Part shown: in pieces, positions 2,902 to 19,046 of the stretch
Layout: every line of letters begins with the position of its first letter
How positions within the stretch are numbered: the stretch's first letter is position 1
The notes under the pieces: model-generated
The model's input: only the letters and a program-made list of their open reading frames with translations
Told to the model about the DNA's origin: nothing
The model's database searches: none
DNA from: a virus
Virus record (IMG/VR): IMGVR_UViG_3300031344_000002
Span: 1-64,000 of that record
Reading direction: 5' to 3' (one strand)
DNA: 64,000 bases
Made by a program: the position numbers and the translations under genes

Positions 2902-3269
2902 GGTGTTAAACCCTTCCAATTTAGATTAGTTTCCACCCACCACTAGTTGATATTGTTACAAAACCTTGGTGTTAAACCCTTCCAATTTAGGTTGGTTTCC
3001 ACCCCATTTCAATTCCTGCCTCTACAATTGCACGGTGTTAAACCCTTCCAATTTAGATTAGTTTCCACCATCTTCAATGTTTCCTACCTCATGTTTATTG
3101 GGTGTTAAACCCTTCCAATTTAGATTAGTTTCCACCATAATCACCAATTTTTGAGCTATACAGATGCGGTGTTAAACCCTTCCAATTTAGATTAGTTTCC
3201 ACCCCTGAAGGAGAATATTTGAAGGGATTGGTTGGTGTTAAACCCTTCCAATTTAGATTAGTTTCCACC
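2902..3269. CRISPR. CRISPR-like array, 6 repeats and 5 spacers
   Basis: Six copies of a 36-base repeat start at 2902, 2968, 3034, 3101, 3168 and 3234. Five are identical and the second has two A-to-G changes. The five spacers are 30, 30, 31, 31 and 30 bases, all different, and visibly richer in G+C than the phage background. The repeat begins GGTGTTAAACCC and ends GTTTCCACC; the ends GGTG..AAAC and GTTT..CACC can pair, as in many CRISPR repeats. I see no cas gene in the window and no spacer match within it. Each spacer has at least one open frame across its length, as expected if protospacers lie in genes. Direction of transcription is unclear. The 2869-2901 flank is a short AT-rich stretch and the other flank is coding sequence. 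Confidence 0.85.
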
Positions 3270-3625
3270 CAATCTTGAATGAAATCCCTGATTTGCTCGT
3301 AGTTAAGACCAAATCTTACTTCAAAAATTTGCCAAATAAGTGAATATTTTACCCAAAGTCTGCCATTTTTCCAATCCTGCTGAAATAACCAACAATTATT
3401 ATTAGAATCTGGATGATATAAACCATCTAATTTATAATAAGTTATTTCTTTTTCACCAGTAATTTTAGCTACAGTGTTATTAAACATTTCAAATAAGAAA
3501 TCTGACATTGCTTTAGATTTATCATCCTTATTTACAATGGGTTTAAATTTGATTAATTCAAAAGTAGAATTATCTTTATCAATTTCAAACCCATCAGGTA
3601 CGTTAATCTTTATTTCTTTTTCCAT
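3270..3625 (-). CDS. Hypothetical protein whose frame runs into the CRISPR-like array
   Basis: The open frame actually continues to 3125, through two repeats and two spacers, adding about 48 residues. The 3270-3625 part is non-repetitive: it starts with a Lys/Glu-rich beta region (Glu-Ile-Lys-Ile-Asn-Val-Pro), has a Trp-rich middle and ends in a helix (Tyr-Glu-Gln-Ile-Arg-Asp-Phe-Ile-Gln-Asp-Trp). The first repeat then reads Val-Glu-Thr-Asn-Leu-Asn-Trp-Lys-Gly-Leu-Thr-Pro without a break, which looks like a natural C-terminus. So the gene may end inside the repeat or have been truncated by the array. No function recognised. Confidence 0.7.
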
Positions 3626-11671: not shown

Positions 11672-13681
11672 TTAAATATTAATACCAAAAGTTTTTTCAA
11701 ATTTCATGTTACCACAATCATAAATTTTATATATTTTATTGTCTAAAATGTTTTCACAAATTGATTTATTTTTATCATAATTTTTTAATTTAATAATATT
11801 TCCTTTTCTAAAATTAAAACGATGCTGTCTTAATTTTTCATTTATATTAAAATATGTATATGTTGGTTCATTAACACTAATCAATTGAAATCCTAATTGT
11901 TTATATAAATTACCTTGACTATATCTTCTATCAGCAAAAGATATTATATTTTCGGGTTGATATGTATTTATAAAATATTTTAATAATTTACTTGCACCAC
12001 CAGTTATTTTAGTGTTTAGTTTATTACAAAATCTATTTAAATTATAATAATTTTTATTATTTTCGTGATTACCTAATCCAATTCTCATTTTTTCAAAAGT
12101 CATAATCGACACCAATTCATTATTATAAAATAATCCAATTTTAATATTACTACCAACAAAACCTTGTAAATGATTGTTATTTAAAAAACTATGAATTAAT
12201 TCATTATCATTAATTTCTTTAATTTGACATTTACGAGCAAAGATTTTATTCTCAATAATACCTAATTTAGATTTTATAATACTTTTAATAATTTCTTTTT
12301 TATGTATCCATTCATCTTCAAAAATGTGAAGTAATTGAATTCCTTGTTTTTCACATTCAACTGTTTTATTTAGATGATAATTTTTATCCTTAAATAATTC
12401 TGAATGCCAATATAATCCATTAAATTCGATACCTAATTTATAATCAGGAAGATAAATATCAATTTCTTGTTTATTTTTTAATATTGGTATGTTTTTTATA
12501 ATTGTTTTAATATTTAATTTATTATTAATAAAATCACGAATTTCATTTTCTAATATCGATGCATTTTCAGAAATGGGATTACATTTTGTACAAATATTTT
12601 CATGTTTATTGAAAATAAGTCTTGAATATAATAATGATTTAGAAATTTCAAAATAATTATGAATTTTACAATAATTTTTAATTATAACAAAATGATTATT
12701 AATTTTTATATCGTTTGAATTAATATTAAGTAAATTTGAATATTTTTCTTTAAAATTATCATTGATTACGTTGTGTATTTTATTAATTACATCTATGGAT
12801 TTAGATGGATTATCTACACCATATTTTAGTATGGAAGTTATTTTACTTTTATCTCTATTATTATAATTTTCATCACCATATCTTATTTTTTTTGTATTTT
12901 TTACATCATCTTTATATTCTTGAGTACTACTATATGACGTATGATTATATTTTTTTAAATTTGTTTGTTTTATTTTTTCTTTAACTTTTTCATTTTGAAT
13001 TGAATATTCAACGCCATATTTTTTTAAGTTAGTTTGTTTTGTTTGTTCTTTAATTGTTTCGTTTTGAATTGGATGTTCAACACCATATTTTTTTAAATTA
13101 GTTTGTTTTGCTTTATTATTAATTATTTTATTCTGCATTGGATTTTCAACATTATATCTTTTTAAATTAGTTTGTTTAACTTTTTCTTGTTGAGATTTTA
13201 ATTTAAGATGATGTTCAACACCATATCGTTCTAAATTAGTTTGTTTACTTTTTTCTTTAATACTATCTAATTGTTGTGGATGTTCAACACCATATTTTTT
13301 TAAATTAGTTTGTTTTATTTGTTCTCTTTTTTCTTTAGAAAGTAATGTATATTTAAATCCAAAATTTTTCATTGATGTTTTTTCTCTTTTGATTTTAATA
13401 TTATTGTCTTTTCCAATACATTGCATTGAACAATATTTTGAAAATCCTTCACTAATTTTTTTAAATTTAACTGGTTTACCACATATTACACAAATAGGCG
13501 GTTTGGATAAATCATTTAATATTAAATAAAGCATTGCACCAAATGAAATATTATAGTTTTTAAATTTGTTATAAATTAAAACATATAAATTATAATAATT
13601 TTTTTTAAAAAACGATTCTGTTAATCTTCTTTTAATAATAATATTATCATTTTTTACGATTTCAAGTATTTTTTCCTTCAT
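11672..13681 (-). CDS. Hef/Vsr-like homing endonuclease with repeat array
   Basis: 669 residues. An N-terminal zinc knuckle (Cys-Val-Ile-Cys-Gly ... Tyr-Cys-Ser-Met-Gln-Cys) near residues 60-90 is followed by about seven copies of a roughly 24-residue unit (Thr-Asn-Leu-Lys-Lys-Tyr-Gly-Val-Glu-His-Pro), a DNA-contacting repeat of the NUMOD type. The C-terminal 280 residues contain Ile-Asp-Ile-Tyr-Leu-Pro, Gly-Ile-Glu-Phe-Asn-Gly-Leu-Tyr-Trp-His and Leu-Leu-His-Ile-Phe-Glu-Asp-Glu-Trp, a PD-(D/E)XK/Vsr-like core as in phage Hef enzymes. Its C-terminal half is closely related to that of the endonuclease at 17463. It is free-standing, next to the tail sheath gene. Confidence 0.85.
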   Translation of the reverse strand: MKEKILEIVKNDNIIIKRRLTESFFKKNYYNLYVLIYNKFKNYNISFGAMLYLILNDLSKPPICVICGKPVKFKKISEGFSKYCSMQCIGKDNNIKIKREKTSMKNFGFKYTLLSKEKREQIKQTNLKKYGVEHPQQLDSIKEKSKQTNLERYGVEHHLKLKSQQEKVKQTNLKRYNVENPMQNKIINNKAKQTNLKKYGVEHPIQNETIKEQTKQTNLKKYGVEYSIQNEKVKEKIKQTNLKKYNHTSYSSTQEYKDDVKNTKKIRYGDENYNNRDKSKITSILKYGVDNPSKSIDVINKIHNVINDNFKEKYSNLLNINSNDIKINNHFVIIKNYCKIHNYFEISKSLLYSRLIFNKHENICTKCNPISENASILENEIRDFINNKLNIKTIIKNIPILKNKQEIDIYLPDYKLGIEFNGLYWHSELFKDKNYHLNKTVECEKQGIQLLHIFEDEWIHKKEIIKSIIKSKLGIIENKIFARKCQIKEINDNELIHSFLNNNHLQGFVGSNIKIGLFYNNELVSIMTFEKMRIGLGNHENNKNYYNLNRFCNKLNTKITGGASKLLKYFINTYQPENIISFADRRYSQGNLYKQLGFQLISVNEPTYTYFNINEKLRQHRFNFRKGNIIKLKNYDKNKSICENILDNKIYKIYDCGNMKFEKTFGINI

Positions 13682-17462: not shown

Positions 17463-19046
17463 ATGGAAAATATTAAAAATTTTTTTCTTACCAACAATAA
17501 ATCTGGGTATAAAACCAATGAAAAATGGTTAAATATTAATCATAATGATTTATATTTAAATATAATTCATTTTTCGACAAATAAAAACATTTTATTTGTC
17601 GAAAAAATTTATTTGTTTATTAATAATTTAACTGATGTTCCCAGATGCCCTATTTGCAACGAATATGTTAAATTTATTGGAACTTTAAAACGTGGATATA
17701 ATAAATACTGTTCAATAAAATGTTTAAATAAATCTGATGAGCATAAAAATAAAATAATTTCAACATTTCAAAATAAATATAATTGTAGAAGTCATAATCA
17801 GGTTGATGAAATTAAAAATAAAAAAAGAATAACATTAATTAATTCTTATGGCGTTGATAATCCAATGAAGAATAATAATATAAAAAAAAGACAAATTAAT
17901 TCTCTTATTAAAAATTATGGTGTTGATAATCCGATGAAAATTAAATCAGTTATTGAAAAAAGAAATAAAAATATTGAAATTGGTGAAGAATTAAATATTA
18001 AAAGAATGTTAAATAGAATTACTGATAATACTATTATATATATTGGGCATAATTTAGCTGAAAATAATAATGTTAATTTTCATTGTTTGAATTGCAAAAA
18101 TGATTTTAAAATAAATTCTAATTTATTAACATCACGAATTTCTAATAATACTACCATTTGTACTATTTGTAATAAAAATAAATCATTTTCTGAAATACAA
18201 AAATCGTTAGAAAATTTTATTACATCATTAAATATTAATTATGAATCAAAAAATAGGGATATTTTAAATGGATTAGAAATTGATATATATTTACCAGAAC
18301 ACAAATTAGGTATTGAAATTGATGGTTTATACTGGCATAGTAATAAATTTAAAGACAAAAATTATCACCTTAATAAAACTAATTTATGTGAACAACAAGG
18401 TATACAACTACTTCATATCTTTGAAGATGAGTGGGTTAATAAGAAAGATATTGTTAAATCTATAATTAAAAGTAAATTAAGTATTATTGAAAATAAAATA
18501 TTCGCAAGAAAATGTCATATAAAAGAAATCGATTCATTAATTTGTAATAACTTCTTAAATGACAATCACATACAAGGTAATATTAATTCTAAAGTTAAAA
18601 TTGGTTTGTTTTATAATAATGATTTGGTATCGGTTATGACTTTTGGTAAAAAGAGAGTTGCTATGGGTAATAAAACCAATATTGAGGGAGAGTATGAGAT
18701 GCATAGGTTTTGCAATAAACTTAATACTCAGGTTGTTGGTGGAGCAAGTAAGTTATTAAGTTATTTTATAAAAACCTATTTACCAAAATCAATTTTAACA
18801 TTTGCGGATAGAAGATATGGTCAAGGTAATTTATATAAACAATTAGGATTTAATTATATAAAAAATACCCCCCCCAATTATTGGTATATTTTACCGGGAG
18901 AATTGAAAAAATATTATAGATATTCATTCAGAAAAGATGTATTAGTTAAACAAGGATTTGATAAGACCAAAACAGAAAATGAAGTAATGATTGAAAGAGG
19001 ATATTTGAGAATATATGATTGTGGTAATATGAAATTCATATATTAA
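17463..19046 (+). CDS. Hef/Vsr-like homing endonuclease
   Basis: 527 residues, a shorter paralogue of the protein at 11672. An N-terminal zinc knuckle (Cys-Pro-Ile-Cys ... Tyr-Cys-Ser-Ile-Lys-Cys) is near residues 60-80, then two or three NUMOD-like repeats (Tyr-Gly-Val-Asp-Asn-Pro-Met-Lys), a second four-Cys zinc site (Cys-Leu-Asn-Cys ... Cys-Thr-Ile-Cys) near 200-235, and the PD-(D/E)XK/Vsr-like domain with Glu-Ile-Asp-Gly-Leu-Tyr-Trp-His and Leu-His-Ile-Phe-Glu-Asp-Glu-Trp. I see no promoter of its own; low-level read-through from the tube gene is likely. An 8-base C run inside it (near 18868) is unusual in this AT-rich sequence but keeps frame. Confidence 0.85.
   Translation: MENIKNFFLTNNKSGYKTNEKWLNINHNDLYLNIIHFSTNKNILFVEKIYLFINNLTDVPRCPICNEYVKFIGTLKRGYNKYCSIKCLNKSDEHKNKIISTFQNKYNCRSHNQVDEIKNKKRITLINSYGVDNPMKNNNIKKRQINSLIKNYGVDNPMKIKSVIEKRNKNIEIGEELNIKRMLNRITDNTIIYIGHNLAENNNVNFHCLNCKNDFKINSNLLTSRISNNTTICTICNKNKSFSEIQKSLENFITSLNINYESKNRDILNGLEIDIYLPEHKLGIEIDGLYWHSNKFKDKNYHLNKTNLCEQQGIQLLHIFEDEWVNKKDIVKSIIKSKLSIIENKIFARKCHIKEIDSLICNNFLNDNHIQGNINSKVKIGLFYNNDLVSVMTFGKKRVAMGNKTNIEGEYEMHRFCNKLNTQVVGGASKLLSYFIKTYLPKSILTFADRRYGQGNLYKQLGFNYIKNTPPNYWYILPGELKKYYRYSFRKDVLVKQGFDKTKTENEVMIERGYLRIYDCGNMKFIY

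Follow-up and report, generated by a model that had tools for sequence, protein, structure and literature searches.

The window analysed here, the initial 64 kb (64,000 nucleotides) of the 218,381-bp viral record IMGVR_UViG_3300031344_000002, carries at positions 2902-3269 an array of the clustered regularly interspaced short palindromic repeats (CRISPR) type that is continuous with a phage gene. The record belongs to a large, tailed, AT-rich phage (26% G+C), whose genes include a tail sheath, a DnaB-like helicase and homing endonucleases; it is incomplete, as a 38-kb contig that is essentially identical across 24.8 kb reaches 13 kb past its start. The array is oriented on the minus strand and is composed of six 36-bp repeats, five identical and one with two base differences, and five mutually unrelated spacers of 30 or 31 nucleotides (nt), the numbers and lengths of repeats and spacers being those described in an original prediction from the sequence of the locus (Table 1). 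The pairing of the repeat ends announced in that prediction was also recovered, with GGTG facing CACC and fold energies of the minus-strand repeat between -8.3 and -10.9 kcal/mol. The central aspect of the locus is that repeat 1 is in frame with the adjacent gene and constitutes the C-terminus of its protein, ending ...FIQDWVETNLNWKGLTP. This gene encodes an N-terminal module (MEKEIKINVPDGFEIDK) and a conserved C-terminal domain (W..FE..F.LNY.QI..F), the latter occupying the position expected for the leader of an array. The array had been predicted to be stand-alone and devoid of cas genes; no adaptation gene was indeed found in the phage, but the term stand-alone is wrong, because a protein-coding gene ends in the repeat, a layout found at ten loci.

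Two more arrays are present in the same record, at 153,690-154,055 and 155,107-155,342, each located after a paralogue of the window gene and in the same frame. All three arrays consist of near-identical repeats and unrelated spacers of constant length, as is general for CRISPR arrays, and their 13 spacers are all different, with none shared. A related phage of 364,702 bp (G001) possesses two tandem paralogues (62% protein identity), both ending in the same peptide, and in each of them a single 30-nt spacer and one more repeat come after the tail repeat. Repeat 1 is the in-frame C-terminus at the three loci of this record and at the two loci of the related phage. Distant relatives were sought in the viral collection by degenerate searches with the tail peptide and by a search with the upstream domain only, and four more phage contigs (L107, L110, L108/L109 and L117) were found to carry divergent homologues with the same anatomy, which brings the gene loci with this layout to ten, distributed over six phage contigs or genomes. 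One tail-pattern match (L106) was an unrelated protein without repeats and was dropped. The domain-only search, which is blind to the tail, retrieved six genes, five of them with two to six repeats spaced by 65-67 nt and the sixth, L108, with a single copy. The part common to these proteins is the C-terminal domain with its tail, the N-terminal modules being different, and all the homologues of this domain that were found, down to ~35-40% identity, have the repeat in the same frame as their own C-terminus. At L010 (13323-13726 and 14737-15143), gene and array are tandemly duplicated (~90% identical), and the spacers of the two arrays are fully different.

In the gene-proximal repeats of the five loci from the two large phages, variation is confined to synonymous third positions, and the gene bodies carry many amino acid differences (P ~0.0005 for the synonymous-only pattern, assuming five independent changes and 22% of random changes being synonymous). 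Judged from these substitutions, the first repeat is under coding constraint. Several gene-distal repeats carry nonsynonymous or stop changes, as exemplified by a stop and other changes in repeat 2 of locus E of the related phage, by the degenerate last repeat of array B and by the altered repeats of L107, L110 and L117; at two loci, the last repeat on the side away from the gene is degenerate. The presence of the private variant AAACAAACC in both repeats of one locus, E, indicates that the repeats were copied locally.

Two gene copies within one 84-kb contig, L108 and L109, form a pair of empty and filled sites. Their 36-bp tails are identical, with 93% identity upstream of the tail and 90% over 100 bp downstream, and L109 is longer by exactly 66 bp, corresponding to a second 36-bp tail and a 30-nt segment of 63% G+C that differs from the downstream flank. 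In addition, L107 and L110, which come from different metagenomes, have the spacer GCAATGTAGTAGCCAAGTAAACTACTTATA in common; it occupies the gene-proximal position in L107, and in L110 a new spacer holds this position and the shared one comes second. Polarised gain of a spacer with its repeat was therefore found in these relatives (L108/L109 and L107/L110) and not at the window's own locus. Since gain occurs on the gene side and decay at the far end, the gene would represent the leader side. As the repeat was copied and foreign DNA inserted, whereas a tandem duplication would copy the flank, an integration of the Cas1-Cas2 type is favoured. At the sequence level, the exact 66-bp difference and the gene-side gain bear the hallmark of spacers integrated by Cas1-Cas2 at the 3' terminus of a gene. 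The CRISPR-like origin put forward in the original prediction is corroborated by this pair, together with the unrelated G+C-rich spacers, the exact duplication of the repeat, and the shared and newly gained spacers of the relatives.

The G+C content of this phage's spacers exceeds that of its genome (35.5% versus 26.3%, P=0.00025), as had been anticipated, and this points to foreign sources. The open frame that had also been noted in each spacer conveys little information for 30-mers. The arrays may serve in defence against rivals, in an attack on host genes or as a decoy. Self-targeting was discarded, the best matches inside the phage's own genome having at least eight mismatches.

In the record as a whole, the PADLOC matches listed for open reading frames of at least 95 amino acids (aa), among which a weak one could be missing, include no CRISPR effector or adaptation gene apart from TnpB. 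This protein, of the IS605 type and encoded at ~215 kb of the record (L017:16945-18183), is the only Cas12-like protein among the matches listed; a Cas12f-like PADLOC match considered as a companion effector of this phage proved to be this TnpB and was rejected. Cas1 is absent from both large phages according to a Pfam search with positive controls. With neither Cas1 nor any further adaptation gene found in these two phages, the integrase would probably be the Cas1-Cas2 of the host.

Concerning the gene itself, no match above cut-off was obtained in Pfam, PHROGs or PADLOC, and an AlphaFold model of the product (predicted local distance difference test score of 75) gave no significant fold match. 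In Bacteroidota genomes, besides weak matches at chance level, only the N-terminal module has a homologue. It lies in a prophage-like gene (L101:1366-1926) that encodes this same module (KITPPKGYEVDKDKSTFENIVFK) ahead of an unrelated C-terminus. The motif appears to be a module that small phage proteins have in common.

The repeats of this record resemble both Bacteroidota VI-B-like repeats and the repeat of the Cas12f array of the related phage better than shuffled sequences do (P ~0.005 or less for this record's forms). The VI-B-like loci, which include those of Bergeyella zoohelcum, Riemerella anatipestifer and Flavobacterium columnare, were recognised by a repeat pattern modelled on known Cas13b repeats. 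On the leader-distal side, the tails end in ACACC, ACAAC or ACAGC. The spacing and the above-shuffle similarity would fit a Bacteroidota-type host. The 36/30 layout and the paired ends had suggested type VI-B, but this identity was rejected because the tails go unrecognised by a covariance model built on VI-B-like repeats. No CRISPR family of Rfam scored above threshold for the repeat.

We propose that these loci are CRISPR-type arrays that developed at the 3' end of a protein-coding gene of the phage, with the host Cas1-Cas2 as the likely integrase, a reading that we consider probable. The last 12 codons of a small and often duplicated phage gene would act as a 36-bp CRISPR-like repeat, and the coding sequence upstream of them would stand where an array has its leader. 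Foreign fragments of 30 nt would be joined to the tail of the gene by an integrase, for which the Cas1-Cas2 of a host of Bacteroidota type is the likeliest candidate, and the 36-bp tail would be duplicated at each integration; as each event copies the tail, the gene-proximal repeat would stay coding and older copies would drift downstream. Transcripts of the gene would extend across the array, whose repeats could be processed into guides by a host effector, or by a phage Cas12f where present, the spacers then being used against competing phages or other targets. The use of host Cas proteins against rivals, as suggested in the original prediction, is plausible. It can be hypothesised more tentatively, and we would lean slightly against rather than for this broader view, that the 3' coding end of this protein family has evolved as a docking site for Cas1-Cas2, whereby phages turn the adaptation machinery of the host into a builder of their own guide arrays and of variable protein C-termini, arrays arising de novo from genes repeatedly and in several phage lineages. 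The case is strong for the structure and, for the function, tentative.

Several results weigh against this proposal. Searches for spacer targets returned only matches of 22-25 nt, which is chance level, and no protospacer was found in public phages, plasmids, the phage's own genome or the array loci compared, uncultured targets being hardly searchable; the mobile DNA targets that had been expected were not recovered from phages and plasmids. Nor was the host array with the same repeat that had been foreseen: the repeat has no exact match in the genome contig collection, and no array lies within 3 mismatches of it either in 17 genomes that carry VI-B-like arrays or in 396 genomes of Bacteroidota. 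Moreover, the above-mentioned covariance model, constructed from 31 VI-B-like repeats, gives no match to the tails.

An alternative is that the gene tail is chiefly a mimic of a CRISPR repeat, a decoy or RNA anti-CRISPR (Racr) that binds host Cas proteins, the spacers being by-products of the host Cas1-Cas2. Racrs are repeat mimics, and the published search for solitary repeat units masked open reading frames, so that coding repeats would have escaped it (PMC10651486); the single-copy tail of L108 and the similarity to Bacteroidota repeats agree with such a role. A pure decoy, however, needs neither the spacers of regular length, at least one of which is present at most loci, nor the differences between the arrays of paralogous loci, and the host repeat to be mimicked was not found in the collections above, which makes this alternative rather unlikely in our opinion. 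It could also be that a phage ancestor captured an ordinary host mini-array and that the neighbouring gene was later read into the leader-side repeat, the coding role being secondary. Mini-arrays that carry host repeats have been described in viruses (PMC6858448, PMC7162821, PMC11656645), and the present repeat is CRISPR-like in its length, ends and similarity. We regard this scenario as unlikely, given that every homologue of the C-terminal domain found ends in the in-frame repeat, that the gene-proximal repeats of the two large phages differ by synonymous substitutions only, and that L108 has the gene tail without an array, although a loss of the array is possible there.

The related phage also raises the question of a phage-encoded effector. 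Its Cas12f locus (L046:17417-19451) comprises an effector of 482 aa at 217,417-218,865, matching Cas12u3 in PADLOC (3e-82) and Cas12f in PDB (6e-48) and with no close homologue among INPHARED phages, and an array of six repeats at 219,087-219,451 that has its own repeat, GTTGTAAACAACCACAAATTGAAAGGTACTTACAAC, and a 66-nt period. The locus contains a GGCTG-GTTGTA-CAGCC hairpin, which we take to be like those of the trans-activating CRISPR RNAs (tracrRNAs) of known Cas12f guides. The repeat of this array is identical to the tails at 26 positions in an alignment of 37 columns, in the same orientation, and it could be surmised that the gene-tail arrays feed a type V-F effector such as this Cas12f. 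This is improbable, as Cas12f is absent from the window's record (itself incomplete), no second tracrRNA with a loop matching the tails was recognised, and the duplex energies of the tails with the Cas12f tracrRNA region are no better than those of shuffles, in a weak test that failed also for the Cas12f repeat itself. An adjacent cas12f with its tracrRNA, as in type V-F loci, accompanies the tail arrays neither in this record nor in G001, whose Cas12f array is built on another repeat. Finally, units of 66 bp preserve the reading frame, as would be expected of a coding tandem repeat or an assembly artefact with no CRISPR history. This reading is extremely doubtful: the spacers are unrelated to one another and to the flanks, spacers of 31 and 29 nt break the frame, and the same anatomy is seen in independent assemblies. 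Plain tandem duplication is refuted by the L108/L109 pair, in which the insert is not the downstream sequence, and by intervals that are copies neither of each other nor of the flank.

Table 1. Coordinates of the gene and of the array elements in the window.
Feature	Position	Strand	Remark
Phage gene up to repeat 1	3270..3625	-	start codon at 3625; from translation
Full open frame, 166 aa	3125..3625	-	crosses repeat 1, spacer 1, repeat 2 and spacer 2; stop within repeat 3
Repeat 1, gene-proximal	3234..3269	-	codes for VETNLNWKGLTP, C-terminus of the gene
Spacer 1, 30 nt	3204..3233	-	AACCAATCCCTTCAAATATTCTCCTTCAGG
Repeat 2	3168..3203	-	
Spacer 2, 31 nt	3137..3167	-	
Repeat 3	3101..3136	-	
Spacer 3, 31 nt	3070..3100	-	
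Repeat 4	3034..3069	-	
Spacer 4, 30 nt	3004..3033	-	
Repeat 5, variant	2968..3003	-	two synonymous changes (AACCAACC for AACTAATC); form of the record's other two arrays
Spacer 5, 30 nt	2938..2967	-	
Repeat 6	2902..2937	-	array end farthest from the gene

Elsewhere in the window, two related large homing endonucleases (11672-13681 and 17463-19046) lie on either side of the tail sheath gene. The remainder of the record, at ~121-218 kb, encodes anti-defence or defence-like genes, with matches to the anti-Thoeris protein Tad4 (4e-36), to a viperin-like protein (pVip, 3e-18) and to NADAR, as well as two ice-binding-like proteins.

The loci described here provide evidence from nature, in the form of a state before and a state after, that an array of the CRISPR type can begin at, and stay part of, a protein-coding gene, which bears on the origin of arrays and on the acquisition of guides by viruses without adaptation genes. 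Repeat searches in which genes are masked would overlook such gene-tail arrays, and the open-licence literature that was searched holds no account of an array in which the coding end of a phage gene serves as the repeat. Off-target spacer integration, attributed to Nivala et al. in 2018, is said to create new CRISPR loci when a repeat-like non-CRISPR site gains a spacer and the sequence of the site is duplicated. The L108/L109 pair is such an empty and filled pair, but here the process is natural, concerns a recurrent gene family and has gone through repeated rounds. Virus-borne mini-CRISPR arrays have been described in the Sulfolobales viruses SPV1 and SPV2 (PMC6858448), and arrays without cas genes in huge phages (PMC7162821). 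Like those, the present arrays are short, have no adaptation genes, show a turnover of spacers between relatives at the same position and presumably use host Cas proteins; the known ones, however, carry a host-like repeat, and in SPV also a host-like leader, whereas the present repeat coincides with the 3' coding end of a family of phage genes and has no matching host repeat among those searched. Solitary repeat units and Racrs are similar in being repeat-like sequences of phages without cas genes (PMC10651486), as is the single copy of L108, but they are single intergenic repeats, whereas the window has six repeats with spacers and an overlap with the coding sequence. The VI-B array of F. columnare is chromosomal and lies beside cas13b, unlike the phage tails, which the VI-B-like covariance model leaves unscored. 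It nonetheless resembles them in its 36-bp repeats, its leader-distal end of the ACAAC type and the lack of its own cas1 and cas2 (PMC8092290), and the 66-nt period is likewise found in the VI-B-like loci. In that bacterium, the Cas1 of a type II-C system supplies the VI-B array in trans despite a different leader and repeat, the part common to the II-C and VI-B repeats being their leader-distal end (PMC8092290).
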